A stretch of 64,000 bases of DNA. It comes from Micractinium sp. NFX-FRZ. Its lineage: Eukaryota > Chlorophyta > Trebouxiophyceae > Chlorellales > Chlorellaceae. This document shows, one piece after another, positions 760 through 63,900 of the stretch. The notes beneath the pieces were generated by a model. That model did no database searches, was not told the DNA's origin, and saw only the letters and a list, made by a program, of their open reading frames with translations. Where the stretch lies: assembly GCA_029339195.1 (NCBI GenBank), contig JAPTJF010000005.1, positions 1 to 64,000 of the forward strand, read 5' to 3'. Each line of letters begins with the position of its first letter. The stretch's first letter is position 1. Position numbers and translations under genes: made by a program.

Positions 760-3700
760 TCACAAATTCATGTGGGCCAGAGCCCCCTCAACCGCAGCCA
801 ACTGAGCCAGCACCTCTGCCGCCGCCTGCGCACCCACCAAAGCTGAGCCCTTGCCGTGGCTGCTTGGCGGCCGCTGCCCGCCGCTGCACCCAGCTGCCGA
901 GCACTGCATCACCGCAGCCAACGCCTTGCTCAGGCGGGCGGCAGTGGCACGCAGCGTGCTGTTCTGCTGCTGCGCCTGCTCCAGCTGCTGCCGCAGGCGC
1001 CGCGCCTCGGCAACAGACGCAGTTGGGCTGGCAGCTGCCGGCGACAGTGCTGGCGATGCTGCCTGTGCTGCGCTGGAGGCGCGGCGCTGCATGTGGGCAA
1101 AGTGCATGCGGTCTTGCAGCGCCTCCAGCTGCATCTCCAGAGCACCTGCCAAGCCTGCACAGCAGCGGCAACAAACAGGGAAGGTGTGTGGTTTGATTCC
1201 CATGCACTTTGTGTGCTTTCGTCGCACTTTGTTATCCGTGCCTGCCAGCAAGCACCACTGCAACCAGCACTTGCAGTCAGCTGGAACCCTCCCTTCCGCT
1301 GCCACCCAAGCAACCACCACCCACCCTGGGCCGCCTCTTTCTCCCCTTGCAGCTGCTGCAGCATGCGACGCATCTGCTGTGCCTGCTGCTTCTGGTCTGC
1401 AGCCAAGGGCAGATGGGTGGACACATGTGCTCAGATGGGTAGACACATGTGCTCGATGGGAGGAGGTTCAGCCCTCAAAGCTGCTCACCAAGGCAGCTGG
1501 TGGTTACATCCTGTCAACCAAGCAATTCGAGGTGTGTGCTCACCTGACAGGGAGGCTTGCAGGCGGGCACGGTCCGCCTTGATAGCTGCCAGCTCAGCAG
1601 CAGCGGCGTCTTGCTGCGCCAGCAGCGCCTCCACCCTGGAAGGAGGCAATGCCAGCGGTGCCCTGTTGATGTATAGCAGTGCCATGCACGGCAGGGCGGC
1701 TTGCCACTGGTGCTCACATCCTCCCCATTGCCCTGCACACTGCCCCCCAATATTCTTGCGTCCACACCACCACGCGCACTGCACGACACCATGCGTCACA
1801 GTCCCGCACCTGCCCAGTGCCGCCTCCAGCCTCTCTTCGCCCTCCCGTGCCGCATGCCGAGCCATCCCAGCAGCCTGCTCTGCAGCCGCGCTGCGCTGCC
1901 GCTCCGCTGCCACCTGCCCCTCAGCAGCCTGAAGCTTGAACTTGAGGTCTGCTGCCTCTGCCTCCAGCAGGCGCAGCTCCAGGGTGTTGGGTGGCTCGTG
2001 CAGCAGCCTGCGTCAGCGGGGGCAGAGTGAGCAACAAGTGGGGGGACGACAGATGACAGACAGTAGCTTGAGCTTGAGGCCGGCTGCCGCCACCTCCGGC
2101 AGGCGCAGCGTCAGGCTGTTGAGCTCGTGCAGCAGCCTGCAGCAGCGTGCCTGACTTGGCCCTTGGCTCACCTTTCAACCTCCTGCTGCATTGCCAGCAG
2201 CTGCTGCTCCGCCTCCTGCCGGCGCTGCAGCTCGCGCCGGCCCTCGGCCGCCGCCTCTGCTGCTGCCTGCTGCGCTGCCGCCAGTTGGGAGCAGCAGCCG
2301 CGCAGCTCGCCCTGCATGGAAGCCAGCTCATCGTGCAGGCCCTGCATGGGAGCACAGTACAAGCAGTGCGCAAAGGAGAGCACTCGGAACAAGTGGAAGC
2401 CAGCACGCAGAATGCCAGCCAGCCAGCCGGCACGTTCAGCAACACTGTATGAATACGACTGCTGTAGCTGAGCTCAACCTTCTGTAATGCCCGCACCTGT
2501 GCTTGCTGCTGCGCCACTGCAAGTGCCTGCTGGTTCTGCTCCCGATGCTGCTCCATGCTGTCCTGCAGACACTCCACCTGCTGCTGTAGCCGGGCAGTCT
2601 CAGCCTCTGCTGCCGCCAGGCACTCTTGCAAGTGGTGCCTGTTCCCAGCCTCTCCCAGCGCTGCTTCTGCCGCTGCCAGCTCAGCTTGCACCGCCGACAG
2701 GCGCTGCTGGGCAGCAGCTTCTGCTGCCTCCACCTCTCCCAGCTGTTGCTGCTTGCGCTCCAGGCGTTGCTGCACTGCCTGGCAGGCGGCAACCGCCTGC
2801 TCGGCGGCCTGCTCGGCGTCTGGAAGGTGCTGCCTTAGCTGCTCCAGCCGCTGCTCTGCAGCCTGAGCCTCTTCACGCCAGCACTGTGCCTGATGCTGCG
2901 CCTGCTGTGCGTCATGCCGCGCCTGCTGCGCGTCCTGCAGTGCCTGACGTGCCTCCTGCTGCAGGGCCTCAGCCCCCTCATTTGCCTGCTGCCGAGCCTG
3001 CCGTGCTTCCTCTTTCGCCAGCTGCAGCATCTGCTGACCCTCCTGCTCTGCATGCTGCCGCGCCCGGGTAGCGGCTGCGTACTGCTGCTCTGCCTTGCTC
3101 GCTGCCTGCCGCACTGCCTGCAGTTGCTGCTGAGCGGCAGCCGCCGCCGCTGCTGTCTGCTGAAGCTGCTGCCTCTGTGCGCCCACCTCAGCTGCCACGG
3201 CATCAGCATCTGCCTGCAGAGATGCCAGCATTGTGTCTGCGCCCTCCAGCTGCTGCTGCACCGCCACCTGGCGAGCCTCGGCAGCAGCAGCCGCAGCCGC
3301 TGCCTCCTCCGCCCGCCGCTGCTCTGCAACAGCACGCTCCTGGCTGGCCGCCAGCTCGTGCTGTGTGGACTCCAGCAGCGCCTCGCAGCTGTGCAGCTGC
3401 TGCTCCGCCGCATCAGCCGCAACCTCGGCGTGCCCCAGCTCCTGCTGCTTGCACTCCAGCTGCTGCCCTGCCACCTCCAGCTGTTGCCCCACTGCTTCCA
3501 GCTGCTGCCGTGTGTCCACAAGCCGTTGCTCTGCAGCCGCTGCTTCCGCGTGCATCTGCACCAGTTGCGCATCTGCCGCCACCAATGCCTCCTGACGGTT
3601 CTGAAGCAGCTGCTCCGCATCCTGCGTCTGCGCCTCCACAATACCCAGCTTGGCCTCAGCAGCCGCCAGGTCGGTGGACAGCTGCTGCAGCCGGTGCTCA

Positions 3701-5771
3701 TGCTGCTGCCGCTGCTGCGCCGCAGCCCCCGCCTGCCGCTCCTCCCGCTGCCGCTGCTCCGCCACCGCTGCCAGCTGCGTCTGCGCCTCCAGCAGCTGCT
3801 GCTGCACCTGCACAGTAGACGGTGGCCACGCAGGCAAGCGCATTGGCAGGTGCTTCAGAGCGTTGTCATCTTGTCATCTTGAGATTCAGGAGCATGCACC
3901 ATGCAGCATGCATGCACCCACAGCATCCAACCTCAGCTTTCAACCAGCACCAGCGCCTACCTGTTGCTGTGCCGTCGCGACCTCCTGCTGCAGCGAGGCG
4001 CGCAGGCGCCCCGCTTTCTCGGCCAGCCGGTCCTCTGTGGTCCCCAGCTCCCTCTGGGCAGCTGCCAGCTTGGCACTGCAGGGGGCACAGGGATGGGCCA
4101 AACCGCAGGCGGATGGGCCCAAGCACACCTGCCGGCAAGCTGCTGGCATGAAAAGCAGCGTGTCTTAACAAGCAAATGCATCATGCATGTAATCATGCAT
4201 GCTGCCAGTGAAATGTGTGCAAGCGCAACCCCACTGACCACAAACTCGCTCGCATGGCAGACCAGAGCAAACATGGAGCAGAGCGCCACTCTCACCGTAC
4301 ACCCTGCAGCTGCTGCTGCGCCTCAGCAGTCTCAGCCTGCACCGCCTCTGCTGCCTGGCGCGCCTCCCGCTCTGCCGCCTCCTGCTTCCTGGCCCGGGCC
4401 TCAAGTGCCGCCAGGCGCTGCCCAGCAGTGGCTTCTGCATCTGCCAGGTCTGCTGCTGCCGCCTCCCGCTGCATTGCAGCCTGCTCTGCTGCCGCCAAGC
4501 GCTGCTGCGCCACTGCAGTCTCACTGGCGGCGCGTGCGGCAGCTGCCTGTGCCTCGAGGCGAGAGCGATCTGCAGCACCAATGTCAGCTAGCAGCTGTGC
4601 GTGCCGCTGCTGCAGCTCAGCCAGTCGATGACTGGCGCTGCCCGGAGGGGTGCCGCCGCCGGCTGCGGACGCTGCCCCAGGAGTCGCGGCTGGCATGGGC
4701 GATGCAGCGGCGGATGCGCCAGGTGGCGCCGCATGCAAGCCCACCGGCCCCGGCGGTGCACTCTGATGGCTGCTTGCAGGCCCAGCAGTGTCAGGGGCCG
4801 GACCTTGGGGCAGTGGCGGTCCTGGCAGAAGCTGGGTGGCGGGCGTGCCCTGCTGCTGCTGCTGCTTCTGCCCTGCAGCAGCACAGGCGCAATGTGAATC
4901 AGTGGATCTCAGCAGACACATACTCATTAACAAGCAGGTCAGCAGGGAATATAGCTGCCACACAGGGGGTGAGCAGCGCAGATGTTGCCCCGTGTTGTGC
5001 ACCCCGGGGGAACCAGGCAGCAGGCACGTTGTATGGAGCAAGGCGGCAGGGTGCCGGGACCACCTAGCTGCCCACCCACCCACCAAGAGCTCGCAACGCC
5101 ATATTAAGGTTGTCGACCAGTGCTGAGGTGGCACCGCCCTGTGCAGAGCGCGCACGCGCGGCCTGCTGGCATGGCAGTGTGGCCAGCGGTGTCGCGGCCT
5201 CATGGGTGCCACACCGACCGCGGCTGCTGCTGCTGCTGGTGACAGGGGCTGGCGGGGTGGCGGCTGCTCCTGCCGCCGCCGCTGCCTGCTGCACCCGGCA
5301 TGAATGCTGTGGCGAGCGAGGAGGGTTGACCAGGAAGTGGCCAGGCGAGATGCGCTGGTGGCTATAGCTGGCGATCGGGGGCGGCGGGAGATGGTGTGCC
5401 GGGAACGATGGGTGCTGATTCCACGGCGTGAAGTAGGCGCCAGCGCCATCGGTGGGGCTGTTCTCCTTGTCGACCCGTGCGCTGATGCCGGCATGCAGTG
5501 GGAGCGGCGATGCCTTGGCCACCCTCGCCTGCAGGCTCTGCAGCGTGCCTGCCGCCAGCTCCTGCCAAGGGGGAGGGAGGCGGTGTGGGGCGCAGGGCGC
5601 AACGGGCAGTGCAGTGAATGTGCGGCAAGCGCACGGGCAAGCCCTTGCACCAGCAGCAGCACAGCGATGCGTCCCAGGAAGATCCAACACCCTTGCAAAC
5701 AAGGCGCTCACCCGCTGCTGCTGCGCCGCCTGCAGCGTTGCCGCCAGCGCTCGTGCCGGCGACGCTTCCAT
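760..5771 (-). CDS. Large Gln/Ala-rich coiled-coil protein, function unknown
   Basis: Ten exons on the minus strand: 5712-5771, 5084-5561, 4296-4872, 3961-4075, 2479-3807, 2172-2341, 1810-2007, 1544-1635, 1325-1396, 760-1145. They join in consistent phase to give about 1158 residues. The first in-frame ATG is at 5771; an upstream TTG in the same frame was not used. Residues 1 to about 240 are Ser/Pro/Ala-rich and probably disordered. From about 245 to 1080 almost the whole chain is heptad-like, rich in Ala, Gln, Glu, Leu and Arg with no proline, which is typical of a long coiled coil. The 443-residue exon 5 lies wholly inside it. No motor, kinase, SMC hinge or membrane segment is visible. A scaffold, cytoskeletal or centrosome-type role is possible but only inferred. 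The neighbour at 6533 is transcribed divergently. Confidence 0.75.
1410..1453. repeat. 22-bp tandem duplication in an intron
   Basis: Two adjacent 22-bp copies with one mismatch lie in the intron between the 92-nt and 72-nt exons of the coiled-coil gene. The copies are recent, and no function is apparent. Confidence 0.9.
2065..2136 (-). repeat. Acceptor-side exon echo in coiled-coil gene
   Basis: On the minus strand this segment repeats the first ~72 nt of the real exon 1810-2007, including the preceding CAG, exactly 129 bp upstream of the real acceptor. The peptide it would encode starts LLHEL like the real exon (LLHEP) and ends with the same Lys/Leu-rich run, but the frame soon reaches a stop. 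It is therefore best read as a duplicated splice-acceptor region inside the intron. Confidence 0.85.
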
Positions 5772-6532
5772 CGGCACTGTCAAGCGAGCGCCGTCACGCC
5801 TGAGGCACCAAGGTCGCTCGCCTGCTGGCTCGGCAATGAGGAACCCACCGGGGCTCCTCTAGCTGTCGGCGTCTGGCAGCGAACAACGTGTCGGGAGGAA
5901 ATCCCTGCCGCTGCCGGCCGCAACAGGCGGCTGCTTGGCTGATACAAGGGCCAGATGGAGGTCTGACTGCCGCGGAGAAAGCACAAGTGAGCAGCACTGT
6001 CTGGGCTTTTCTCCGACCTGGCCTCCCTTGCGGCAAGGACCAGCTATATTTTATAACCCAACCGGCACGGTCTCAAACATGGAGAGTGCCACCTCAGGTG
6101 AGGAAGGCGGCGGACGTGGCGACCTAAAAAGGACCTGACGCCGCTTTCGCACCGCTTGCTGGCTTGCTCATCATCTGCTGTATGGCCACATAAGGCACAC
6201 TGCAACTGCCGAATTCGGGAAATTCTGCAAGTCGTCTCGTGGCCGCCCCACCTTGTCAGCGCCTGCAGCCGCTTCAGCCCAGCCCAAGGCAACCGGACAA
6301 GTGGTCCTCACCATCTAATACGAGCTGGACAAGTGGTCCTCACCATCTAATACGAGCTGCAGCACCCCCAAGGCGGGCTGGAGTCGGCCGCCGCTGCCCA
6401 GTCGCTGCCCGCCTGTTCCCGCACGCTGCCGCGGGCATTCCCACCTGCCACCCCGGGCCAGGGCAGACCAGGGCCTGGAGCCCCTGCACCAGCCTCTGGA
6501 CATAGCCGACTGCAGGCCAGCACCCAGCCAGC
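5772..6532. promoter_or_regulatory. Divergent intergenic region, likely shared promoter
   Basis: About 760 bp separate the start of the minus-strand coiled-coil gene from the start of the plus-strand phosphodiesterase gene. Promoters for both should lie here. No defined box could be assigned. It contains a perfect 32-bp tandem repeat about 175-240 bp upstream of the phosphodiesterase ATG. Confidence 0.5.
6295..6358. repeat. Perfect 32-bp tandem repeat upstream of GDPD gene
   Basis: Two identical head-to-tail copies, 6295-6326 and 6327-6358. They sit in the upstream region of the phosphodiesterase gene and could be a duplicated regulatory element or a recent slippage event. The lack of any mismatch shows the duplication is young. 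Confidence 0.9.
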
Positions 6533-8732
6533 ATGACGGCGCTGCTAGCCAAGCTGGGTCATGCGTTCTTCAGCGCTCCCGTCATCGTCCGGGCCTACCG
6601 TCTCTGCCTGCTCTCCCCCCGCCGTGGGCCCCGCCTGTTTGGCCTCGCCTGTCTCTTCTTCGCCTTCAGCGCTCGCACCGCGCGGCAGTGGGGCGACCGC
6701 CGCCTCAAGCTTCTGGCAGCCCTGGCAGTGGTGGTCTGTGAGGCGGTGCTGCTGGTGGCGCCACTGGACCTGCTGGCGGCTGCTGTGGTCGGTGCCTCCG
6801 CGCTGGTGCTGGCTGCCGCCACGCTGCCCGACGACGAAACCGGGCACCGCTGCGGGGCAGAGGGCTTTGAAGGTGAGGGTAGTTGGTATGCCTGGGTTCC
6901 AGATTGAGCTGCTTCAAGGCCGAGAGGATGCAGGCGCGGTGCAGCGGGGGTGGCAAGCCTGCCGAATGCATGGTTGCTGCCTGGGGCGTCTACCTCTTGC
7001 CTTGCACACCTCAATAAACCACTCCTACCAGCATGCCTTGCTGCCCGGCCAAACGCTAACCCTTGAAATGAAGACACCCCACCCCTGCCCTTGCAGGGCG
7101 GGAGTGTGAGAACACGGTGGAAGCGGTGGCAGCGCTGCTGCGGCGGGAGGCCGCCGAAGGGCCGCTGCCACACTTCCCCTACATAGAGTTTGATGTACAG
7201 GAGACACAGGATGGAGAGGTAAGGCTTCTGGGTGTTCTGGCTGGGCGCGCGCAGAGGGCCTGTAGGGGGCAGGCCTGGGCCTGGTATGGGCACGCCGTCT
7301 GCTGCCCTGCCCTGGTGCCTGCTTCCCTCCCCCGCTGCCTGCTGGCCTGCCTGGGCACTGCTGCCTGCAGGCAGCACTGTGCCCACCTCACCCTGTGCTT
7401 CCATGCGCCTCTTGCCCTGCCTAATTGCAGCTGGTGGTCTTCCACGACTCCCTGCTCTCCCGCGCCTTCCCAGCGGGCAGCGGTGGCGTGAACGCCGAGC
7501 CGACGGTGCAGCTGGTGGAGGCAACAGGTGGGTGCCGCTTGGTGTGTCCTGTGTGCTTGCAAGGGGTCCGTGGAGCTGGACAAGAGCTGGACAGTGCTTG
7601 CGGTGTGCTTTGTCCCGCTCAATGCCTCTCCAGTGGGTTCAGTTCCTGCAGTCAGCAGGGCCCGCTGCATGGTCCCCGCTGCACCGCTCACGGGATGCTC
7701 CCTCTCCATGCTGCTGCAGGCGTCCCGTTCCACCTGCTCACTGTGCAAGACCTCACGCTAGCACAGCTGCAGACGCTGCACATCGGGGGGCGCGCCGGGC
7801 TGCGTGTGCCCACGCTGCAGCAGATCTTAGAGTGAGCTCCCCACACCTGTCGCACTGCTTGCTTACTTGCGCTCCTCCTCTCTTCCTGCAGTGCCACCTG
7901 CATTGCCGAACAGCTCTTGCAGCCGCGCCCTCCAGCTGCTCTGGCCACGCTAGCTGGTGTTGACAAGCTGCGCTGTGCCCTGCCCTGCCGGTGCAGCGCG
8001 TGCTTGGCGGGATGCGCGCGGCGCTCGCTGGCAATAGAGGTCAAGCTGCTGCGCACCGATGCGGCGCGGCAGCGCTTGCTTGATGCCATCAGGTGGGTAG
8101 CGTCGCAGCACCACCGTTGTGGGGCCACCACAGCTGGCTGCACCACCTGGATTTGCATGCCAGGCTCGTGGGGGCTGCAGGGTCCTGTATATGAGGCCTG
8201 GCCCACCTTTTCCACCACAGCCGGTAGCCAACACGTGAGCTCTCCCTCTTGGCCCGCCTGCAGCGGCTACCTTGCGCGCTGCAGGCCGCGGCTGGACGCA
8301 GACCCGGCAGCGCGGCGCCAGCGCTGCAGCCAGCTGGGGTGGGCGGGGATCATCGCCTTCCCACACTTGTTTGCTGCCGCCTTTGGAGAGTACGGCAGCC
8401 CAGAGGTGAGCTTTGATGGTTAATGCTGAGCCCCACCAAAGAAGGTTGGTTGGTGTTTGCTGTGAGGGGATGCCAGGGGGCGTGCATGTGTCTCAAGCTG
8501 CCCGCCGTCAGCAAATGGTCGACTGTGCTGCTGCCTGTGCCTAACAGAGCAGGCTTCTTGTGCCTGAGGGAGCAGCGGTGTGTTCAGGGCACGCCACTAA
8601 ATTACGCCGCCCGCTCTCCACCCGCCTTGCATGCTGCAACCTGTGCAGTGGCGGCGCTGGGCAGCCGAGTTCAAGCGGCGCGGCATTCCGGCGCGGGCCT
8701 GCCACTGCCTGTGGCTCACACTTGTTGCATGA
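6533..8732 (+). CDS. Membrane-anchored glycerophosphodiester phosphodiesterase
   Basis: Seven exons: 6533-6872, 7097-7218, 7431-7527, 7720-7831, 7892-8092, 8264-8405, 8649-8732; about 365 residues. Enzymes of this family (GDPD, TIM-barrel) hydrolyse glycerophosphodiesters, or lysophospholipids in the membrane GDE types, to glycerol-3-phosphate or lysophosphatidate plus an alcohol. The N-terminus is hydrophobic at residues 33-47 and 58-97, giving one or two membrane helices. Family marks follow: His105 in an HRCG motif (normally HRGG), ENT at 118-120, a metal-binding Glu-x-Asp strand, and catalytic-type FHD with His159. Later exons carry the LPTLxxxLE-like and AIEVKLL strands and a short tail starting WRRWAAEF. 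The two-helix N-terminus resembles the GDE1/GDE4 layout. Cys107 replaces a normally conserved Gly. Exon 5 contains an extra Cys/Pro-rich stretch before the AIEVKLL strand that might hide another intron. Confidence 0.82.
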
Positions 8733-9388
8733 CGAGCGGCGGTGGAGGAGCTGCGGCTGCTGCCGTGCTTGCAGCTCCACCCTGCCCAAGGCGGTGCCAT
8801 GCATGGCAGCGGCGCGTAAGGTCAGCCTAGGCTTACCCTCCTGGCTGCCCCCCCGGATCATGGGACGCAGTGATCAGGCCCACACGCCATGTAACACCTC
8901 CTCAATTGAAGCCTGCAGCTCATCACGAGGTTCGTGCCAGGCATGCTGCGCAGGCCTTGACCACCCTCGCACAGGCTTGCCTGGCTGCGACATGCGCTTC
9001 TATCTTCGCTGCCGCTGCACTGCCGTCTCCCCACCCTAGCTGCCACAGCTTTAGGTGCCGACTAGGCCAGAAAGCCCTGCTCGCACCGCTACACCCCTCA
9101 GCTCGCCTGCACGGTGCGCCCGGAAGATACAAATGACGGTGATGGCCGGTTGTAGGGAAACAGACCCCCGATCGCGTGGGATTCAGCCGTGAGCAGGTAG
9201 TCGCCCTAGAGGGCTCTCGCCTCTGACCTCCTCTCGCGTGCCCTGCGTCTGTCGTGACTTACAGGTTCCAAAGGAGCGCCTGCAGCTTGCGAACCGGCTG
9301 ATCGGTTAGACCAGCAGCAGGCGGCAGCAGGCGGCGGCAGCACCCTACCGCGGGAGTCGACAGGAAGCAGCCTTTCACAGCAGTCACC
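8733..9388. other. Intergenic: GDPD 3' flank and MPC promoter
   Basis: No coding exon is recognisable in these 656 bp. The left part should hold the 3' untranslated region of the phosphodiesterase gene, with a TGTAA signal at 8890-8894. The right part should hold the promoter and leader of the pyruvate carrier gene. Confidence 0.5.
8890..8894 (+). terminator. TGTAA poly(A) signal, GDPD gene
   Basis: TGTAA, the usual chlorophyte polyadenylation signal, occurs 158 bp after the phosphodiesterase stop codon. The distance is typical for a short 3' untranslated region. Confidence 0.5.
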
Positions 9389-10773
9389 ATGGCAGCGCAG
9401 GCACCCGGCCTGGGGCACAAGCTGCGTGCCCTGTGGAACCACCCTGCGGGTCCAAAGTAAGCATGACAGCTGCTAACACGGGGGCGTCCTGCGCTGGTGC
9501 CGCCACGCCCACGCTGACCGCGTCGCCGCCCTGCCGTCCGCCCGACGCACTCTTTCACTCCTTACCCGCCCCCTCCCAACCCCACCTTGTTTTTGCAGGA
9601 CGATCCACTTCTGGGTGTGTGACGGGGGGCAAGGCAGGGTTGGGTTGGGCGGTGCAGTGCAGCTGGTTTCAGGGGAGGGCCCGCTTGGCTCAGGGGTTGC
9701 TAACGGCAGTCTGGGGCAGGACAGGGCCTGGAGTCTTGGCCTGCCTGTGCCCCAAGCTTGAGGCCCTTGTTCCTTTACACCGCCGTCCTTGTACCAGAGG
9801 CACTGGTTGCTGTCCGCCCATGTTCACCCTGCTGCCACCTGCTCCTCCCTCCCCCACCCAGGCACCCACGTTCAAGTGGGGCATCTCCATCGCTAACATC
9901 GCAGGTCGGTGGCTGGCGCGCCAGCGGTTCATGGGGCGGCGCGATGGGCGCAGCAGGGGCCGGCGCTTGGGCAACGATGCATGCGGGGCATGGGCGAAGC
10001 ATGCACGGTATCGCAGCACCTCAAGAAGGCATTCACACCTTTGCAAGGCACCCTGCTTTCCGCACTGGACGTTGGCATTGCCCACGACAACAAGGGCCCG
10101 CACGTGGTGGCAGGCCGCTGCCACGGGCAGACCCGCTGAACCATTCCTTGCGCCGCCCCGCCTGCGCCTCCCCGCCCGCCCACCCGCAGACATGCAGCGC
10201 CCCGCCGACAAGGTGTCCTACCCACAGCAGTGCGCCGTCACCGCCACGGGCCTCATCTGGTCCCGCTTCTCCACTCAGATCACGCCGGTCAGTGCTGCAC
10301 ATACTGTACTGCCAGCACGAGTAGGCGCACCCGCACTGCGTTGCTGGCACACTGGCCCGCCGGTGGGCTGCCCGGGCGCCAGTCCGCCACCCTGCCACTC
10401 TGGGCAGGCACAACCTGCTCTGAGCCTGCCTGTATCATGCGTCTTGCTTTTGCAGGTCAACTACAACCTCCTCGCAGTCAACGCCTTTGTAAGCCTTGCC
10501 TGCGCTGGCCTGCTGGCTCCCCTGCCCTGCTTGCCCGCCACTGCGGCACGTCTGCCCCCATCACTGCCTGCTGCCTTCTTGCCCAAGGGTGGCATGTGCC
10601 TGCCATGGCTTCTTTCGCTTGCCCCTGCTGAACAGCCGTTTGCTCTGGTGGCTCTGATTGGTGCGTTGCAGATGGCCGTCACAGGCATCATCCAGCTGCA
10701 GCGCAAGATCCGCTATGACATGGCGCAGGGCAAGGAGGAGAGCGCCGCTGCCGCCGCCACCACCCCCCCTTGA
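9389..10773 (+). CDS. MPC2: Mitochondrial pyruvate carrier subunit, MPC2 type
   Basis: Six exons: 9389-9456, 9599-9614, 9862-9904, 10190-10287, 10456-10488, 10672-10773; 119 residues, the normal size for this family. MPC2-type subunits pair with MPC1 in the inner mitochondrial membrane and import pyruvate to the matrix. The protein follows the family consensus almost throughout: WNHPAGPKTIHFWAPT, FKWGISIANIADM, the RPADKVSYPQQ loop, a TGLIWSRFSTQITP helix, NYNLLAVNAF, and a final helix ending RKIRYD. The C-terminus is a short Ala/Thr-rich tail. The second exon is only 16 nt, yet it is required because it encodes the end of the K-T-I-H-F-W motif in frame. The ATG follows a good CACC context. 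The partner MPC1 is not in this window. Confidence 0.95.
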
Positions 10774-11631: not shown

Positions 11632-17754
<6,123 letters not shown>

Positions 17755-44600: not shown

Positions 44601-47169
44601 CAGCCAGGATGGCGGGCAGGCTCGCGCCCACTCCCCCCTCTCTTTCTAAATGTGCCGCCCTTCCCTGCCCTGCCGCCCAGAGTACACGAGCGGCGAGGTG
44701 ATCTGGCCAGGCAGCGAGGCGGTGCCGCCTCCCCGCCCCTCTGGGCTGCACATTGTGGTGTACGGCCTGGTGCGCAGTAGCTTCGCAGGTGGGAGGGCAG
44801 GAGGCACCGGTGCGCCGTCGGGAATTCTGCTGCTCGCTGGAGGCTAGGCTGCACCATGTGCACTATCTAGGCATACAACTAAGCGTCTGGGCTGGCCCAG
44901 GTGGTGCCTGCCCGACTTGCGCCCTCTACAAAAGGACCCCGGCTGGTGTCCCCACTGCCACTGACCTAGCCATCCTGCCTGCCCACCTGGCATGCTGATT
45001 GACATGCGCTGATTCATCACATAAACATGCACCCCTGACAATGCAAGTACAGACCACCGTGGCGTGGCTCACGAGTACTTCCTGGGCAGCGGCGGCGTGC
45101 TGGGCCTGCTGGGCACGCTGACGGGGCGCCCCATGCCGGGTGCGCTGCGCTGCCGCCGGGAGGAGCACCCCCCGTGTGCGTATCGCCCTGCTTTGGCTGC
45201 GCCCACGTGGCAGTGTGGATCCCTGCATCCCTCTGGTCAGGCGGGGACCGCCTGGGCCAGGCTGCTTCTGATCCGATTCAAAGACTGTGGCTTGCCGCTC
45301 AGCTCCCCACTCCACGATCCTCCGCCACCCGCTGTGCCCGCTCCACTCCCCACGCAGGGTCGGGCCCCGCCATCGCCGAGACAAATGCGCTTGGAAAGGG
45401 GCCCGTCGTGTTCCACATCCCTCAGGTGGGTTCTAGAAGAGGCAGAGGTGGGTGCTAGAAGAGGCAGTGCCCATGGGAAGGTCTGCCTCCCAGCTGACGC
45501 TGCCTGCCGCCTGGCTGGCGAGCACCAGCAACCGCACCGTCGGCTGCACCGTCCCTGCCTCGCCCCAGCAGGCATTGTCACCGCTTGCAGCTGCAATGCC
45601 GTGCGAGCCGTCTCCCGTGGGGTTTAGGTAAAGCTATGTGCCCTGACATGTCAGTCACAGTTCCCTTCAATCCTCACCATTTTGTCGCGGTCACCCCACC
45701 TGCTGTGCTGGCCTGCAGGGCGTCATCCGGCGCCTCCGCCAGCGGGCATCTGCCGGGGACCGCGATGCTGGGCAGCTGGAGCTGGACGTGTTCAGGCAAG
45801 CCCCGCTGAGCAGCTGCCTCTCTCTCTAACAATGTGTCCACTCAAGGAGCAACGCAGATGGGGGGCATGAGTGCACAGGAGACGGTGCGCCCTGTTGACC
45901 AGCGCCGCTGCTCACGAGTTGATGTGGCGCCTCCTTGCCTCCCCGCCTCTTCCATGGGCCTTCCCCTGCAGGGTGACAGGGCTGTATGTGGCTGAGCGCC
46001 TGAAAGGGCAGGTGCTCGCCACCCTGGCAGCCGCGTACCAGCACGCCGCCGCGGACCGCGAGCGCCGCCACGCCATCCGGCGCGCCGCCGCCGCCAGCGC
46101 TGCTGCGGCGCGCGCGGCCGGCGAGAGCAGCGCGGGCGAGGGGGTGGCTGGAGAGCGGGCCGTGGCTGCGGCTGCAAAGGCGGCCGCCGCCGCAGCCAGC
46201 GTGCCCCTGAGTGATGAGGAAGCTTTGGGGCAGCTGGATCGTGGCCGGCTGTGGCGCAGCAGCCAGGCGTTTGCCAGGCACGTGCTGGCAGAGATCAGGT
46301 GCGCCAACTGAAGCGGTGCAGGGGTGGCTTGCAATGCGTGGTTGTCAGGGGCCTGCTTTTGGGTTGCTTACTATGGGCTCTGCTCCCAGGCAGGTGCCTT
46401 GCGCTGTGCGAAGCTACCGCCCCTGGCCTACCGCCACCATGCGGGCCTTCTCTTCCCCTGTGCACCCTCCCCTGCTTAACTCTACATTTTCAAGTGGACG
46501 CTCCCCTGCAGGCACCAGCTGCGAGACGCCGAGCTGCTGCAGCTGAAGCCAAGGCAGTCCTACCACCAGCGCAGCCACGCGCTGCTGATGCAGGGCAGCC
46601 TGCACACCGGCGGCAGCAGCGGCGGCGCCCCGCTGGGCGGCGGCTGGCGGAGCGCAGGCGGCCTGACCGCGCCTGCGGTGCTGCCCTGGCTGGCAGGCCA
46701 CATGCAGGCGGGGGCGGCAGCAGGCGGGGATGCGAGCGTCCTGCCTGTCAGCCCCCAGGCCGCTGCCGCAGCGGCGGCCGCACCCCCGCTGGTGGCTGGC
46801 AGCGGCGGCGCAATTCTGCTCGTGTGCCCAGAGGAGGAGGCGGTGACTCCCTCCTCTCCAGCCTCAGACAGCGAGTCAGACACGGCGGGCAGCTTCTTCT
46901 CTGGGGCACATCAACCAGGCGGCATGCAGCGGCAGAAGAGCAGGGCCTGGATGCCGCCTGTGGAGCCGCAGCTCGCGCCCGAAGCACAGCAGGCACAGCA
47001 GCAGCAGCAGCAGGCGCAGCAGGGGGCGGGGCAGCAGGGGGCAGAGCAGCTGGAGCCCCTGGGGCCGCGGCTGCACCGCGTGCGCAGCCGGCGGCTGCCA
47101 CTGTCCTCCGCCATGCTGGGCATGGAGGGCATGGAGATGCACACCCCTCCGGCTGAGGGTGGCGCCTGA
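32674..47169 (+). CDS. Giant SOS1-like plasma-membrane Na+/H+ antiporter
   Basis: Thirty exons join in frame to about 2182 residues; plant SOS1 is near 1150. Exons: 32674-32804, 33129-33278, 33528-33648, 33968-34098, 34338-34453, 34724-34941, 35405-35474, 35740-35826, 36127-36289, 36552-36650, 36891-36972, 37167-37259, 37448-37522, 37866-38224, 38557-39031, 39290-39367, 39804-41847, 42123-42235, 42427-42476, 42696-42793, 42986-43116, 43507-43601, 43826-43919, 44368-44518, 44681-44788, 45053-45139, 45358-45425, 45719-45795, 45972-46298, 46512-47169. Residues 1-512 are the multi-helix CPA1 exchanger: FFYAFLPPLLLDSAL, ASTDALAIAAVL (Thr184-Asp185), the core EGESLLND (Asn213-Asp214), and GLRGAISL. 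Residues 513 to about 1497 are Ala/Gln/Ser/Pro/Gly-rich low complexity. The C-terminal part has SOS1-like helices and a cyclic-nucleotide-binding-like fold (about 1690-1830). An in-frame stop upstream fixes the ATG. Seven introns need GC donors. Confidence 0.9.
33299..33345 (+). repeat. Donor-side exon echoes, antiporter exon 2
   Basis: Two short copies of the junction ATCAAC-x-TGGGCAG|GTGGG follow the real donor at 33279, at offsets of 35 and 58 bp. The second has lost the GT. Confidence 0.7.
34419..34655 (+). repeat. 97-bp tandem triplication across antiporter exon 5 donor
   Basis: The exon end AGCCTGCTGA...GATGCATCAG and its donor recur at +97 and +195 bp. The third unit is nearly identical over 28 bp (GGAGGG.GAGAGCCTGCTGA) and the middle unit is more diverged. 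Only the first unit is coding, and it holds the active-site motif GESLLND. Confidence 0.88.
35210..35326 (+). repeat. Acceptor-side exon echo(es), antiporter exon 7
   Basis: The start of exon 35405-35474 with its acceptor (CCTCAG then GAGGTGGCCACCATCCTGGC) is copied exactly for about 29 bp at 35294, 107 bp upstream. An older, weaker copy (CTCTGGAGGTGCCCACC) lies near 35217. Confidence 0.9.
39385..39440 (+). repeat. Minisatellite of TTATGATCAGC units in intron
   Basis: Short tandem units of CTTATGATCAG/CTTATG lie just after the donor of exon 39290-39367. AT-rich against the surrounding GC-rich sequence. Confidence 0.75.
44015..44250 (+). repeat. Possible A-tailed retroposed element in intron
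   Basis: Within an antiporter intron a block ending in ATAATAATA plus 15 A (44236-44250) contains GTTCGATTCC at 44071-44080, which resembles a pol III B box. This suggests a short retroposon, but no clear A box, tRNA fold or target-site duplication was found. Confidence 0.3.
45426..45468 (+). repeat. 21-bp tandem duplication at an intron start
   Basis: GTGGGT.CTAGAAGAGGCAG is repeated twice directly after the exon 45358-45425 donor, creating a second potential GTGGGT donor 21 bp downstream. Confidence 0.85.
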
Positions 47170-53900: not shown

Positions 53901-54947
53901 GTGGCTGGCCTGCCTGCCTGCCTGCGTTCCACTTGTGTATCGGTGTCTCGGGCAGCGCAGCAAGCCACCCGACCCCCCATTTTTCTGGCACTGACCGCCG
54001 CAGGCCAACACTTTTGTCGAGACGGCGCGCAAGTCTTCCCACGCCCCCGAGTCCCCGGAGCAGGTGAGGGCAGCTAGGCCCCGTTGTGGCACCCCGAACT
54101 GGTCTCCTGCCTGCCTGCCTGCCTGCCCGCCTGCCGGTGCCACCGTGCTTGTGTGCCTGCGCGCCTGCCTGTGCTCTGCACTGCAGCAAGCAGAACCCTG
54201 GCTGCCCCCTCACTCCCACGCTCTGCGCTTCCCTGCCTGCTTGATCCACCCTCCCTGCCTCACCCTCCCTGCCTCACCCGCTGCCTCACCCGCTGCCCCA
54301 CCTTCCCTCCCTCACCCGCCGCCCCGCTCTTGCTGCTTCACCTCACTTCTCTTCTCTCGATGCCTCCCCCGCTGGCGCCTGCCAGGAGCTTGAGATGATG
54401 ATCTACAACTGGAAGCCGTACTTCACGCTCAAGGACTCGGTGATGGACCCCTCCTACGACGGCCCCGACATGACGTGAGTGTGTGGGTGTGTGGGGCCAG
54501 GGCGTGGTAACAGCTGTCACCGCGTCATTGTGCGGGAGTGCAGGTTTGTTGATGCCAACAGGCCCCGACATGACGCGAGTTGTTTGTGGAGCGGGGGAGC
54601 AGGGGTGTGGAGAGCTGCTCCTTCCTGGGGGTGCCTTCCTACCGGAGGTGTGGGTGTACTATGGTGCAATATGGTGCGTTGCCGGGCACCCTCACGGGTC
54701 CCTCCTACACCAAAAAAAAAGCGGCAAACAAAAAAAAAAAAAAAAAAAAAACACTCCCGCTTCCGCCTGCCTGCCTGCCTGATTGCCTGCCTGCAGGTAC
54801 TTTTTTGACCGGCCTGATGACGAGGCCCCAGAGAACGGTCTGGACCTGGGCCGCACCGCCGCCTCCAAGTCGTTTGCCGGGCACGTCTCTGGCGGCGCCA
54901 GCACGCAGCACAAGGGCGAGCCCGCAGCATACCTGACGATGGCCTGA
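50961..54947 (+). CDS. GGH: Gamma-glutamyl hydrolase (folate polyglutamate hydrolase)
   Basis: Eleven exons: 50961-51125, 51380-51468, 51616-51767, 51967-52013, 52313-52367, 52827-52897, 53188-53385, 53609-53692, 54004-54063, 54386-54474, 54797-54947; 386 residues. The enzyme removes gamma-linked glutamates from folate polyglutamates and in plants is vacuolar. Residues 1-23 form a signal peptide, consistent with entry to the secretory pathway. The class I glutamine-amidotransferase fold shows IGIL, the GGLTDLW turn, the nucleophile elbow HGTCLGFQLL (Cys145), and QWHPEKPPYEF with His261 of the catalytic pair. The region SMENHMFG and the C-terminal YNWKPYFTLKDS block also fit the family. The tail after the catalytic domain is slightly extended. 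Two introns carry donor-side exon echoes, and the last intron has a 22-A run. Confidence 0.95.
52566..52600 (+). repeat. Donor-side exon echo, GGH exon 5
   Basis: GCTGCTGGT..T.G.CACTGACTC followed by GG|GTG copies the end of exon 52313-52367, 228 bp downstream of the real donor. Confidence 0.75.
54558..54582 (+). repeat. Donor-side exon echo, GGH exon 10
   Basis: The block AGGCCCCGACATGACGCGAGT repeats the exon 54386-54474 end and donor (GGCCCCGACATGACGTGAGT) exactly 100 bp downstream. The donor GT has become GC. Confidence 0.85.
54712..54751 (+). repeat. Long A-runs in GGH intron
   Basis: Nine A at 54712-54720, then GCGGCAAAC, then 22 A at 54730-54751. Extremely unlike the GC-rich surroundings. 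It could be a retroposon tail or simple-sequence expansion. Confidence 0.85.
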
Positions 54948-56052: not shown

Positions 56053-58988
56053 ATGCGGGTCTTGGCAGCGCTGCTGCTGGCCCTGGCGCTGCCGTGCCCC
56101 GGCATGGCTGCAGTCAAGCTAGATGGCAATGCGTCGCAGCAGCCAGGCAGCGGCGGCGCCTCCACAAGCAGTGCCGGTGTCAGCGCTGCTGCCGCCGCCA
56201 CCGCCGCCGCCACCGGCCCGGTCCGCTGGCAGTGGTACGAGTCCCTTTTCCCCTCTGCTGCCCTGCTGCCCACCGTGACCGGCATGCGGGGGCACGAGGT
56301 GGTCTTCCAGATACCCGACAGCCCGCGTGCCACCCTGTTCATCGCGCCCGGCTGCTCGCACGCCGCCCACGACTGGTGGCCGCCCAGCGCCGCCTGCCCC
56401 GAGTGCCTGGGCCTCCCAGAGGAGGTCGGGCAGACACAGCAGGCCCTGGCACGCGGATACGCAGGTGGGTGGGTGCAGGGGCTGGGCAGCAATCAAGCCA
56501 GCAATGTGGTTGGCCATGGGGCGGCTGGGCACAGGGCAATCGCTCGTGTGGCAGCAAGGCTGCTCTCTCACTGCCGGGGTACCAGTGCTCCCACCCCCAT
56601 CCCCGCGCTTCACAATGCAGACGAACCTTCACAGTCCACAGCGCTGCATTCCCCCCCATCCCCACCCTTGCCCCCGCCCTTGCCCTGCCCGCAGTGCTGG
56701 CCATGTCTGCTTCTTCCCAGAGCAACGAGCAGTGCATGGACTGGCCGAACAACCACAGAGATGCGGTGGAAATCATCAAGGCGTTCCGCAAGGAGCACAA
56801 GTGAGTGAGGTGGTCGTGCGGGCAGCGCAGGCAGCACAGCCAGGTTGGAGGGCGGCAGCAGTGAGGCGGCAGGCAGGATGCATCAGAAATCATTGTTGCA
56901 TTCCATAACCCATCAAAGCAGCGCAAGTGGGGTGACGGGCCACTGGGGAGGTGGCATCGGCAGAGGGGGTGGCAGCACGGCAGCGTGCTGGCTGTGGAAA
57001 GGGGGGACGCAGAGCGGGTTGCAGGGTGGGGTGCTATGCAGGGCGCAGGGCTTGGCAGTGTCCCCACTTCCTGGAATGATGCTGCTAGTGGTCCCAGGGA
57101 CCCACCTTTTGCGTGACTGCCCTCCCCTGCACCACCCAACCTTCATCCCGCCTGCCCCCTGCCCCCCGCCGCCCGCCCCCTGCAGGCTCCAGGAGCTGCC
57201 GCTGTATGCGCTGGGCGTGTCTGTGGGTGGCGGCTTTGTGATGAAGCTGCCTCAGTATCTGAAGATGGACGGCGTGCTCTCAGAGGTGCTGGGGCCCAAG
57301 CCAGCAGGCTTTGACCCCTGGACGTACAAGCACGGTGAGCTCAGCGGGGGTGCCTGTGGGTAGCCCAAGCAAGGAGAGCGCGTCTCATGGCGACCGCCTG
57401 ACACTCGCTGTATCGCGTGCCTAGCCTTCCTGCTGGCATGCGGGCCCGGTGTGTGCTCCTCCTCCATGATTGCGCTGATGGATCGACCCTCATCGTGCCA
57501 TGCAGGCATGTTGTCTCCTCAGTGTCGCTACACCCTAAACCCCCTCATCACGCTTGCCTATCCATCCGCTTCCTCAGTTTCTATGCATGTCCCTGTGCCT
57601 CCCTCCCTCCCCTTCTTGCAGGCATGCCGCCCTCCGTCTTTGTGTCGATGGACCAGGATCCAGCCATGGCCGCCAGGATCAGCCAGGACTCGGCCACGCT
57701 GCGCACGCTGGGCGTGCCCACCGCCACCGTGCGCGTCCCGCCGCGCCCCGTGCACCCCACCTTCTTCTCGAACCGCAGGTGGGCCTGCTGGGCGTGCTGG
57801 GCGTGGCATGGGGCGTCCCATGTTATGCCTGCCATGCACTTGTTGTCAGGGAAGGATGCCAAAGAGCAGTGGGGATTGGCCGCCCGGCCCCGGGCGCGCC
57901 CCGACCAGCCCCTTCACTCCTGCCTTGCCTTCGCCCCCCCTGCTGCTCACCTCCCTTCCTCCCTCCCGCATCCCCTGCCTGCCTGCAGCCCCCGCATCGA
58001 CCCGGACACGAGCGCCCGGGTGGTGGCCGCCCTGCACCAGATAGGCATGCTGGATGAGCAGGGCATGGTCACTCAGGACCCCCGGTGAGCGCGCACTTCA
58101 TACTCAATCAATCAATCAAACAATAATGATAATCGGTAGTATGATTGAATTCGGCACTTCATGACCTTGTTTGGTTGTATGACTGGCTGAACCTGAGTCC
58201 AGTGCACATGTGCGTGGTCAGCTACCACAAGCAGGGCTGCACAAGCATGGCCGATACTATCTTGTGCACCCCTGCCTCGCCCCCGCTGTGCAGGCACACG
58301 CGCAAGCCGTGGGTGAAGGAGCTGGTGGAGCTGGTGCCCGAGCTGAGGAGCGGGATGACCGAGGACCACAGCCACGTGAGCGCAGCGCAGATGCATGCAT
58401 CCGTGCTGTGGGGGTGGGCATCCCAGGATTGCAGCAGCAGCAGCGGCAGTTGGGACAGTAGAAGCGGCGGCAGCAGCAGCAGCAGCAGCAGCAGCAGCGG
58501 TGGCTGCCACAAACTCCCCGACCGCTTCCTACCACCGCCACCGCCCCTGCAGGTGTGGGAGGAGATTAACCTGGCGTACAGCGCCCACGAAATAATTGCA
58601 GACTTCACCACCGCTGCCTTCCTGTGGTTTGAGAGCGGGTGAGCCGAGGCGGGCTGGGGGCGGAGGGGCAGGGCGGGGCTGGAGGGCCTTGCCTGTGCAT
58701 GCACAAGAAGGCGAGCACTGCAGGGGGCGGCGGCAGGCAGGCGTCAAGGTGGGACCTTGGCCGCCGCTTCCTGTGACCCTGGTGCCTCATTCCCAGCCTA
58801 ACTCTGGCTGTCTGCTCCCGGCTTTCCCTCTCTTACCACTGCAGCGGGAAGGCCGACTTTGCGGAGCTCGTGCGCCTGCATGCTCCCCCCGGCAGCGGGA
58901 TTGTGGGGGATGCGGGAGACGTGCTCCGCCCGCTGCCCTCCGCCAGCGGCAAGGAGGCGGCGGCAGGGTCAGCAGCTGCCCAGTCTGC

Positions 58989-59056
<68 letters not shown>

Positions 59057-59754
59057 CTGGTATCCAGCTTGGCGGGCAGAGGCAGGCAGAGCAGGCATCT
59101 TCTGTGCGCGACCTGGGCGCTGGCAGGCTGCACGCAGCGACAGCAGAGGAGGAGGCGGAGGGGCGGGTGAAGGTGCAAGTGCAGGTGGAGCAGCCGATGC
59201 AGCAGGTGCCGCAGCAGAAGCAGCAGGCACAGCAGACGCAGCAGACACAGCAGGAGCAGCAGGAGCAGCAGCCACAGCGGGAGCAGCAGCCACAGCAGCC
59301 AGAGCAGCCGGCACAGCCGGCCGACAAGGCGGCACAGGTGCAGCCAGCGCAAGAGCAGGCGCAGCAGCCTCGGGCAGAGGATGGCAGCAGCGGCTTAACA
59401 GCTGCTGCTTCTCTCGCCTCGGCCCCGGCCCTCGCGCGCGAGGCAACGCCAGCCGGCCCCGCTGACAATGCAACCGCTGCTGCAGCCATGGATGGCGCGC
59501 ACGGCGCGGCGAGCATAGTGGGCGGCGTGGCTGGCACGCTGACGGGCGCTGCGGTACTGCTGGTACTGTACCGCCTCTCGGAGAGGAAGCGCGCCGGCTT
59601 TGCTGCGCTCCCCACGCACGGGGCGGAGCCGTGGCAGCGGGGCCGCGGCCATGGGCCGCCCATGCCTGCGCCCAAGCTGTTGCCAGTAATCATGGAAGAG
59701 GGCCCCGTGGAAGAGGTCGAACAGTACGACAAGAGTAAACTAAATGGATGCTAG
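56053..59754 (+). CDS. Secretory alpha/beta-hydrolase-like membrane protein (paralog 1)
   Basis: Eight exons: 56053-56464, 56695-56800, 57186-57334, 57622-57778, 57989-58084, 58294-58375, 58553-58638, 58845-59754; 665 residues. Residues 1-19 are a signal peptide. The catalytic-type domain (about 70-350) has an oxyanion-loop-like FIAPGCSHAAHDWWP, a conserved ACPECLGLPEE segment shared with the next gene, and the nucleophile elbow G-V-S-V-G (Ser185) of alpha/beta-hydrolases. The substrate is unknown. The last exon encodes a long Gln-rich linker, with an uninterrupted Gln22 at residues 412-433. It then has a single membrane helix at about 586-606 (VGGVAGTLTGAAVLLVLY) and a short basic/acidic tail. 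This predicts a type I membrane protein with the hydrolase domain in the lumen or outside. It is a tandem duplicate of the gene at 60914. Confidence 0.82.
57505..57540 (+). repeat. Acceptor-side exon echo, hydrolase paralog 1 exon 4
   Basis: A GCAG acceptor followed by GCATG...CTCC...GTGTCG copies the start of exon 57622-57778, 117 bp upstream. Moderate similarity, with small gaps. Confidence 0.6.
58426..58500 (+). repeat. AGC/GGC microsatellite in intron
   Basis: Interrupted CAG/GGC triplet runs in the intron before exon 58553-58638 of hydrolase paralog 1. Confidence 0.8.
58990..59055 (+). repeat. (CAG)22 microsatellite coding Gln22
   Basis: Twenty-two uninterrupted CAG codons in the last exon of hydrolase paralog 1. 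Pure repeats of this length are usually unstable and length-polymorphic. Confidence 0.95.
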
Positions 59755-60913: not shown

Positions 60914-63900
60914 ATGCCGGCTGCCGCTCTGCTCCTCCTGGCAATGAGCGGCCTCGCCCATGCCGCCGACAAAGACTACGGTGCGTGGTGTGTTGTGGGC
61001 ATCCAGGGCAGGGTGTTTCTCTCCCCAGCTGTGGGTGCCATAGCTGCTTATCAACGCCACCACGCTTGCAGCTGCCTGTGCAGCAGGACATGCGCCACGC
61101 ACGCACCGCCCAACCCCTGTCGTCCTGCAAGCCCTCTGCCCGGGCGTCCCGCTCAAATGCCTGCCTGCCCATCCGCCTCCACCCCGCCTCCCTCTTGTGC
61201 GTGCTGCAGAGAAGGACTTCCGCTGGGAGGTGTGGTACGACCAGCTCAAGCCGTACACCGCCCACAAGTACAAACACGACTACTACTTCCAGGTGGGCAT
61301 GGGGGCCGGGGCCAGCGGGCACGGTGGCTGGGTGCAGGCAGCGGTGGGCAGGGTTTCGGGGTGGAGGAGGCCAGTGGGCTGGTTGGCTGGGCACAGAGGA
61401 GGGACCAGGGGGCTGGAGAAGAGGGGCACTGCTGCGCGCGCAGCCGCACAATCCAACATGCACGGTGCTTGCACTGCTGCCATGTGGGGACACTCCCAGC
61501 ACAGCGCCCTGCTCTTCCAAGTGGCATCACACAGGCTGCGGCTGTGTGGGGACACCCCCAGCCGAATGCCCTGTCAGGCCTTGGCTGCCGCAGCCACCTT
61601 CCCACCACGTCCCACCCGCCCCATGCCCCCACCCTTCCCCCCCACTGCACAGGTGCCCGACAACCCGCGCGGCGCGGTGCTCTTTGCGCACGGCTGCGTG
61701 CACAGCGGCTACAACTTCTGGCCCGAGAGCGAGGCATGCCCCGAGTGCCGGGGCCTGCCCGAGGAGATGAGCCACACGTTGCAGGCGCTGCGCCGCGGCT
61801 ATGCAGGTAGGCAGGGGTGCAATGGGGGCTCTTGCTGGACTGTTTCTTTGTGGCATTGCCCAATCCAGGGCGCTGCGCCTTGTTGGGAAGTAGGCCTGCT
61901 AGAGTAGATGAGCAGCACGCTGCGTGCGCTGCGCCGTGGCTGAGCAGGCCGACAGGGGCAGGGAAGTGGTGATTCCGAGCCAGGGGCGGGCTGGGCCGCA
62001 CTCTCTGCTCCGAAATGCATGCCTGCAGCACCCAAGCCATGTGCTGCGCAGCCTGACTCCACGTCACCCTTTGGCTCCAATGCCCGGTCGTTTCCCCAAT
62101 CTTCCCCCCGGTGCCTCCCGCTCCCCTTCTTGCACCTGCACCCCCCACCCCATCTCACACCCGCTCCCTCTGCCTCTGCTGCTCCTATGCCATTACTCCG
62201 CCCTGCAGTCATTGCCAACTCCTTGCTGGAGGGCAACACCGGCTGCTCTCTCTGCGCCGCTGCCCACCCTCTGTCACATAAATCAGCATGCTGTGACGGA
62301 AAACAAATACGTGTGTCTGATTTGCAGTCATTGCCATCTCCTCGCTGGACCGCAAGACGGGCTGCTTCTCCTTCTGGGACGACTGCTTTGACGTGGCCGA
62401 CATTGTGACAGAGTGGAGGGAGGAGTGGGGGTGAGTGGCCACGTGGCAAAGGGAACGGCTCACGGCTTGCGGGGAAACACGGGAGGGCAGCTGCATGGAT
62501 GAGTCTGAGATGGTGGCGCAAGTCGTGGGGGCCTAAACAACCGAGACAAACCGAGCATCCTGCCGGCAGGCTGCTGCTGCGTGCGACATGGATGTTCAAG
62601 TAGGGAGGGGTTGGGGATTGCCGTCGAGCTGTGTTACACCAATGTGTTGCTTGTAACCCCTCCCTGGTTTGCCTGCCCCCCCATGCTGCATTCCTCCAGG
62701 CTGGACAAGCTGCCTCTTTATGGCATGGGGGTCTCCGCTGGGGGCGCCTTCCTGCTCAAGCTTCCACGCTACCTGAAGGTGTGTGGCTGCCCCAGAGGCT
62801 GCAGGCCAGCCTGTGTTGCTACCAGAGTTACTCTTTGCTTCGGTGTGCACGGTCGTCAAATGTCCGCACATGGAGACGCACGATGCATCCCACTCATCTC
62901 CACCCGGTGCATGCTGCCGACATGTTCACACCTGTTGTGCTGTTTTTGGCCTGGCAGCTAGGCGGTGTTGTGCGCACTGACCCCAGGAGCCATGCCTGCC
63001 TGTACCTTTCCAATGTGACGACCAGGCGTGCCTGCTCGTCTCCCTCCCTTCCTTGTGCAGCTGGATGGCGTGGTGTCAGAGGCGCTGGGCATCGACCCCA
63101 ACTCGGGCGGCTTCCGCGACATCCCGGGACGTGAGAGGGGGGAAGTGCAGCTGTGAGGGAGGCGGGACACACCCGCTCTTTTTAGAGTTTGAGGGGCCTA
63201 GATACAAAGTGCCCGCCGGTGGGTTGGCATGTCTGACTTGACTGCTGCCCACGCCTGCCTCACGCACCCACCTGCAGAGTGCGCCCGCCTGCATGTGTCC
63301 ATGAGCCCGGCACCACTCCTTTCAATGCAACATGACACTCGCACCGCCCGTGGCTGCTATCTGATTAGGTATCTCTGCCTTGCGTGGCCCCCATGCACCC
63401 TCTGCAGAGTACCCGCCCGCCATGTTCTTCAGCATGCAGCGCGACGACAAGCAGAAGGAGCTGATCAAGTGGAACCAGGAGATCCTGCGGGACCGCAACA
63501 CGCCCGCCGAAGTCATCGACGTGAGCCCTCCTCCCAGGCTGCTTTTTGGTTCAGCAGTAGCTTGTTGCAGCCTAACTGGGCGTGCTGGTCCCTTGCGTGT
63601 TGGATGCTGGGGGGCTGCACTGGCAGGCTGTGAGCAGGGCTGGCTGGCCGGCTCACCCTGCCCCTCATAAATTCTCCATCCCCGTCCTCGTGCCACCCCG
63701 CGCTTCCCCATCCCCTCCCTTGCACCCCGCACCCCGCTCCCATGTCGTGTGCCCATTCGACCCTCTTCACCCCATCCCTTGTGCCCCTCTGCCCTTCCCC
63801 ACCACCCCTCCCTTGCGCCCCGCCGCCCCGCAGGTCTACCCCCGCCAGGTCTACCCCACATACTTCTCCGACCGCAGCCCGTACTACATCGATGAGAGTG

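Follow-up and report, generated by a model that had tools for sequence, protein, structure and literature searches.

Local duplications that carry splice signals have been described in a few settings. In the Rogers model, an AGGT segment of an exon is duplicated in tandem and an intron is gained (PMC2891723, PMC4974935); the birth of introns from exonic duplications is also discussed in Drosophila work (PMC2891723). The potato RdRp gene provides a case of tandem duplication over an intron–exon boundary, with a new intron made inside the duplication (PMC4974935). In mammalian cells, small tandem duplications arise from fill-in of protruding ends at staggered breaks (PMC8355091, PMC5730883). Introner elements reshape exon–intron structure, some algae included (PMC9860276), and a Chlamydomonas comparison calls the advantage of intron lengths well above the minimum unknown (PMC8226300). 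Here we analyse a 64-kb stretch of the green alga Micractinium sp. NFX-FRZ (contig JAPTJF010000005.1, positions 1 to 64,000; hereafter the window), whose introns contain copies of their own flanking exon edges together with the splice-site context. We refer to these copies as echoes.

The echoes resemble each of these systems in part. The duplicated potato stretch likewise comprises an intron end, its branch site, pyrimidine tract and acceptor included, and an exon start. That case concerns one gene and a new intron, whereas here many junctions are involved, donors too, and it is the existing intron that seems to grow. The Rogers model shares the local direct duplication with splice signals, but the ends of its new intron, as presented there, resemble the opposite exon edges. 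This is not so here: comparing intron 3′ ends with upstream exon ends and intron 5′ ends with downstream exon starts gave 0 of 372 and 0 of 369 matches (threshold 15 of 25 positions; 0.35 and 0.55 expected). Intron gain of the Rogers type is thereby rejected, and an earlier note on this DNA rightly set the echoes apart from it. Staggered-break duplications are short direct copies as well and offer a plausible source of the unit; in the mammalian work they are not linked to splice junctions, and most echoes here lack a full-unit match. Introners alter exon–intron structure too, but form dispersed families in the account cited. The echo regions and spacers that we searched match their own locus only, which speaks against an introner or other dispersed-repeat family for these cases (the search disregards simple repeats and words of very high frequency). 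The open-licence literature searched yielded no description of echoes at exon edges as a feature of a whole genome.

Copies of exon edges in adjoining introns

The window, which is the start of contig C5, was analysed together with 240 kb of sampled stretches (designated by L-numbers: L006, L012, L013, L027, L028 and others), giving 304 kb of one 66 Mb, 838-contig genome. Genes were modelled ab initio with a purpose-built hidden Markov model (HMM) gene finder trained on the window and the sampled stretches. It returned 66 genes with 418 introns and the consensus sites CAG/GTGAG (donor) and TGCAG/G (acceptor). After exclusion of 46 introns (exon <30 nt or intron <100 nt), 372 introns with 744 edges in 61 genes remained. 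For each edge, represented by at most 60 nt of exon and 20 nt of intron, matches were sought in its own intron and, as controls, in 200 length-matched intron pieces from other genes, in Markov shuffles and in the reverse complement.

At a score of at least 30, echoes were found at 67 of the 744 edges, in 59 of the 372 introns (about one in six), in 27 of the 61 genes and in 18 of 24 stretches. Donors (34 of 372) and acceptors (33 of 372) contribute alike. Mismatched introns predict 0.8 and 0.6 such matches (1.4 in total), Markov shuffles predict 0.3 and 0.4, and none of the 744 edges matches in reverse complement. These controls rule out chance as the origin of the echoes. Low complexity was rejected as a cause: BLAST was run with dust, and the tables of the sliding scan omitted low-complexity segments. 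A stricter intron set retained the signal, with 52 edges among 267 introns against 1.1 expected, and the window is not special, since 12 of 102 introns in the window and the next 10 kb carry an echo. The excess over mismatched and shuffled introns, a comparison that the earlier note had proposed, is thus confirmed and is not limited to the window.

The spread among genes is narrower than that note had claimed. Instead of at least eight of eleven genes, echoes (p<0.005 and score at least 26) were found in six of the eleven genes that were modelled in the window and the next 10 kb and had introns that could be tested. For the distances, given there as about 25–230 bp for donors and about 80–130 bp for acceptors, the measured ranges are 22–263 nt and 50–172 nt. 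For the identity, given there as typically 75–90%, the exon part is 76–100% identical in 51 matches with a score of at least 34. Removing four of these with offsets below 60 left 47 echoes, which were used with flanks of 45 nt in the flank test described below.

Spacing, intron length and decay of the copies

Echoes lie at a preferred distance from the real junction. The offset falls within 75–131 nt in 34 of 49 cases, where uniform placement predicts 9.6 ± 2.7, and some larger offsets correspond to two units, as at junctions 34453 (97 and 195) and 29300 (87 and 167). Echo frequency climbs with intron length, from 0 of 19 introns at 100–150 nt to 17 of 38 at 400–600 nt. Introns bearing echoes of our class 2 have a median length of 352 nt (n=30) compared with 239 nt (n=317; p=1.7e-7). 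Subtracting the offset from echo-bearing introns brings the median to 230 nt (n=35), indistinguishable from the 232 nt of echo-free introns (n=282; p=0.58), whereas subtracting the copied stretch alone leaves it at 313 nt (p=7e-6). In a placement simulation, a tandem model fits (p 0.37–0.54) and plain insertion is disfavoured (p about 0.01); a bare copy inserted at a random place in the intron is disfavoured by intron length and by flank composition. Introns therefore seem to lengthen stepwise at their ends.

The copies decay as a non-coding copy next to a constrained exon does. Mismatches between echo and exon amount to 53/545, 62/547 and 94/538 at codon positions 1, 2 and 3 (9.7, 11.3 and 17.5%), and among the 47 echoes six contain frameshifting gaps and four contain in-frame stops. 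On division by three, 13, 16 and 18 offsets leave remainders of 0, 1 and 2, so multiples of three are not favoured. A function as coding sequence or alternative exon is opposed by the codon positions, stops, frameshifts and offsets modulo 3.

As for the splice motifs, AG is retained in 18 of 24 acceptor echoes, GT in 12 of 23 donor echoes, and motif identity in acceptor echoes is 90/94. Scored with learned matrices, acceptor echoes reach a median of 5.3, compared with 6.7 for real acceptors and −1.7 for other intronic AG (95th percentile 4.8). The corresponding donor medians are 3.0 for echoes, 6.3 for real sites and −1.2 for other GT. Acceptor echoes thus score near the real sites, and by these scores the echoes are plausible candidate decoy splice sites.

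Wherever the joint is covered by a relative's protein or by one of solved structure, it is the outer site that yields the conserved protein. Solved 12-oxophytodienoate reductase structures align unbroken over junctions 14366 and 12441. The ABC1 kinase of the window shares 88% identity with its counterparts in Chlorella sorokiniana and Micractinium conductrix and 94% with a Logan record, which places the alga near these within the Chlorellaceae; the relatives' kinases align across junctions 28892 and 29300, and only the outer junction is seen in their proteins. A Pfam Na+/H+ exchanger match spans junctions 34453 and 35405. At junction 54474, a gamma-glutamyl hydrolase match stops at residue 331, by our own count about six residues before the joint. 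The remaining junctions in modelled genes, including those of the genes at 760–4474 and 60944–66290, are placed by the gene model. As a caution, some EI/EI events are echoes that the gene finder called as exons; L006:4245-4277, for example, is missing from the paralogous protein of L027.

Proposed origin and maintenance of the copies

The flank test separates two kinds of echo. In eight of the 47, copying of the whole unit is clear, while in 39 the intron flanks show no clear match and just the exon edge and core splice motif plainly agree; 39 is an upper figure, as at least one of these echoes, L013:7783, is part of an array of full units. One full-unit example is L012:1163-1777, with a unit of about 106 nt at 98–100% identity, and further arrays occur in L013 and L027. 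Array events are not independent of each other, and L012 is an echo-rich outlier that was excluded where stated: in its gene region at 1-10000, echoes occupy many introns beside the intronic array of ~106-nt units (98–100%), and 100 N are present.

In the 19 acceptor echoes extending to position −3 (five of 24 were omitted), identity is 0.84–1.0 over −5 to −1 and 0.74–0.95 over 0 to +12. It drops to 0.58 at −6 and to 0.37–0.47 at −7 to −12, while the exon side fades gradually. Homology thus ends at the splice motif, where the constraint on the real site also ends. Echo flanks retain splice-site composition relative to random places in introns (acceptors p=0.006–0.018, donors p=0.01–0.05), and among class 2 echoes, as a weak signal of the group, own flank pairs are more alike than permuted pairs (p=0.003, n=24).

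The direct orientation of the copies, their spacing, the gain in intron length and the existence of full-unit cases point to junction-spanning duplication as the likeliest origin of the echoes. Direct copies containing exon edge and splice motif, the hallmark of a junction-crossing tandem duplication, are what we observe. Staggered breaks should leave neighbouring direct repeats of a length bounded by the overhang; the offsets are narrow, yet most echo flanks are unmatched. We suggest that duplications of ~80–130 nt would recur across splice junctions at both intron ends, the unit probably being made when staggered breaks or paired nicks are repaired by fill-in, a route that we infer, as we do the age of the duplications. 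As the outermost junction would still be spliced, the protein would be unchanged; the inner copy would become a spent splice site within an intron lengthened by one unit, and would decay like non-coding DNA. Retention of the exon edge would need something beyond duplication. The exon-derived part of the echo may now and then be refreshed from the exon, through short-range conversion or template switching, while the intron flanks drift until they are no longer recognisable. Exon and echo would then remain alike because selection keeps exon and splice motif constant, and conversion, acting only where selection holds both constant, would stop at the motif. We tentatively favour this combination of junction-spanning duplication and exon-to-echo conversion, at somewhat below an even chance. 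A further proposition, that exon edge and core splice motif rather than a random stretch are specifically copied or maintained in the neighbouring intron in ~100-nt steps, by a process tied to the splice junction that drives intron growth and leaves near-working decoy sites, is one that we hold more loosely, as a possibility. Echoes may make the steps of intron growth visible. Should this be so, relatives' genomes and RNA-seq would allow intron growth, decoy splice sites and local repair to be tested directly.

Several observations weigh against the combined account. Conversion should also aid pairs that lie within the intron, yet these are scarce. Echo mismatches do not cluster and reveal no visible conversion tract (p=0.49, n=36). 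Class 2 flanks exceed reversed flanks (p=0.012), but against dinucleotide-preserving shuffles their mean z is only 0.27 (n=24), so that local composition in common may explain much of the permuted-pair signal. A near-fresh echo in L028, described below, has unmatched flanks (z 0.8), and conversion would have to be very recent there. Finally, insertion targeted in proportion to intron length is compatible with the lengths (p 0.25–0.33).

The earlier note had explained the echoes by repeated tandem duplication spanning splice junctions. Direct copies, offsets near 100 nt, intron lengths, full-unit cases and the use of the outer site at joints covered by proteins uphold this in part, and a neutral version, in which the exon part seems better kept only since the exon is constant, would also predict the codon-position pattern of a neutral copy. 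As the whole story it is contradicted by the 39 of 47 echoes with unmatched flanks and by two further results. When neutral tandem decay is simulated with indels, the rest of the unit has a z above 3 in 70–81% of detected cases and below 2 in 12–21%, with a median of 5.6–7.6; observed values exceed 2 in 17 of 47 echoes and 3 in 9 of 47, leaving 30 of 47 at 2 or below. Intron-only duplications are also too few. With L012 left out, 3 stand beside 44 events that involve an exon (3/47), and with it included 12 stand beside 64 (12/76), whereas neutral placement predicts 37–38% (p about 1e-6 and 2-5e-5, respectively). We therefore give neutral duplication alone little credence. Local templated insertion, by which a break in the intron is closed with a short stretch copied from an exon edge ~100 nt away, suits the sharp ends on both sides, the unrelated flanks of young cases, the even identity along the copy, and four spacers that, searched alone, match nowhere else in the genome. 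But echo-bearing introns are longer than an added 40 nt would explain, unless insertion picks its targets by length, the echo flanks resemble splice-site flanks, and the model offers no reason for the rarity of copied intron stretches or the absence of inverted copies; we regard it as unlikely, if less so than the other alternatives.

Selection could instead keep echoes as decoy or alternative splice sites. The near-real scores and high motif identity of acceptor echoes point that way, and such selection would account for the exon-edge specificity. With GT lost from nearly half of the donor echoes and AG from a quarter of the acceptor echoes, offsets indifferent to multiples of three and an exon-derived part that drifts at all codon positions, we consider this rather improbable. 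A splicing-linked process that copies exon edges and splice motif along with new spacer DNA would explain the same specificity, the identity step at the motif, an added length of about one offset and spacers that have no source in the genome. It sits poorly with the coexisting full-unit tandem cases, and as we know of no mechanism for it, we rate it very improbable. Least credible is an assembly error, such as the fusion, at exon edges, of sequence from two strains or haplotypes. Two diverged genomes would indeed agree in their exons and splice motifs and differ in their introns, and the sampled stretch L012 does contain 100 N. However, the identities are graded, decay affects all codon positions with stops and frameshifts, 18 of 24 stretches are affected, and no second haplotype turned up when three echo regions were searched against the whole genome.

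Echoes in the window and in a paralogous gene family

The earlier note had listed 14 junctions in the window, 12 of which the HMM gene finder recovered exactly. At each of the 12, the match to its own intron exceeds all 200 mismatched controls, which places the empirical p at its floor of 1/201. On the minus strand, the real acceptor edge of junction 2007 (1925–2018) is echoed at 2057–2147 (80% over 94 columns), the donor edge of 12441 (12433–12463) at 12339–12369 (offset 94, 90%) and the acceptor edge of 14366 (14337–14370) at 14421–14454 (offset 84, 91%). Around reported junction 19867, the fourteenth of the set, 19859–19902 is copied at 19739–19783. The duplication there is genuine (score 37), but no gene model was recovered.

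The window echoes listed from here on lie on the plus strand. The exon at junction 25234, the thirteenth, was missed by the HMM; its donor edge (25187–25241) has a clear 55-nt copy at 25340–25394 (offset 153, 89%, GTGAG kept). The DNA at this junction reads in frame as KYDPDRLAAALSSRPT, and relatives continue into ELAARSV. Two of the listed copies are present but weak: 27738–27776 for acceptor edge 27842 (27836–27874; score 33, control maximum 26) and 63258–63289 for acceptor edge 63408 (63389–63421; score 28, control maximum 26).

In the ABC1 kinase gene, donor edge 28892 (28869–28921) is echoed at 28957–29009 (offset 88, 85%), with both exon and intron parts matching. Acceptor edge 29300 has a nearer echo at 29180–29244 (real 29267–29331; offset 87, 80%), in which the intron part matches too, and a farther one at 29128–29172 (real 29295–29339; offset 167, 87%) with an unrelated intron flank. 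Donor edge 34453 (34417–34458) is also echoed twice, at 34514–34555 (69%) and 34612–34653 (79%), GT being lost from both. The echo of acceptor edge 35405 (35399–35427) at 35292–35320 (offset 107) is identical at 29/29 positions and has unrelated flanks; the spacer at 35321–35398 matches nowhere else in the genome. Donor edge 54474 (54461–54480) recurs at 54561–54580 (19/20, GT changed to GC), donor edge 61806 (61752–61817) at 61893–61958 (offset 141, 79%, GT lost) and acceptor edge 62328 (62323–62370) at 62204–62252 (offset 119, 86%).

The L006 gene, which we take from its sequence to encode an acyl-CoA synthetase, has paralogs in L027 and L028 that carry echoes of their own, resembling their own exons. 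Among eight homologous intron pairs of the three genes, none scores above the best of 60 unrelated introns. An echo is present at junction B in all three paralogs and at junction C in two, a sharing that by a rough estimate is not significant because these genes are echo-rich. L028 holds the cleanest case, an echo 121 nt from the acceptor that is identical to the exon edge at 53/54 nt, and the spacer of which matches nothing elsewhere in the genome. In a donor array of L028, the intron part (40/45) is better kept than the exon part (34/46), a difference that is not significant (p=0.11). The segment L028:820-1127 is predicted as an intron where L006 and L027 have unbroken exon, and starts with a junction-spanning repeat of offset 95; it may represent an intron gained recently. 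Viral contigs, searched for relatives, yielded nothing.

Other repeats were seen in the same stretches. L006:86-154 has ~40 other genome matches at 79–95% and is a CAGCA-type minisatellite within an intron, and L012:3280-3378 and 5552-5656 have many copies elsewhere in the genome at 75–93% identity. The region at 21041–22729 of the window, where no gene was modelled, holds longer direct repeats with offsets of 573–661 nt and 75–82% identity. The genes at 56053–59754 and 60944–66290 are adjacent paralogs, the latter without a Pfam match, and belong to a family with relatives on C51, C218, C31 and other contigs. At 45424–45467, a 22-nt tandem duplication (95%) across a donor site has produced two GTGGGT donors 22 nt apart.

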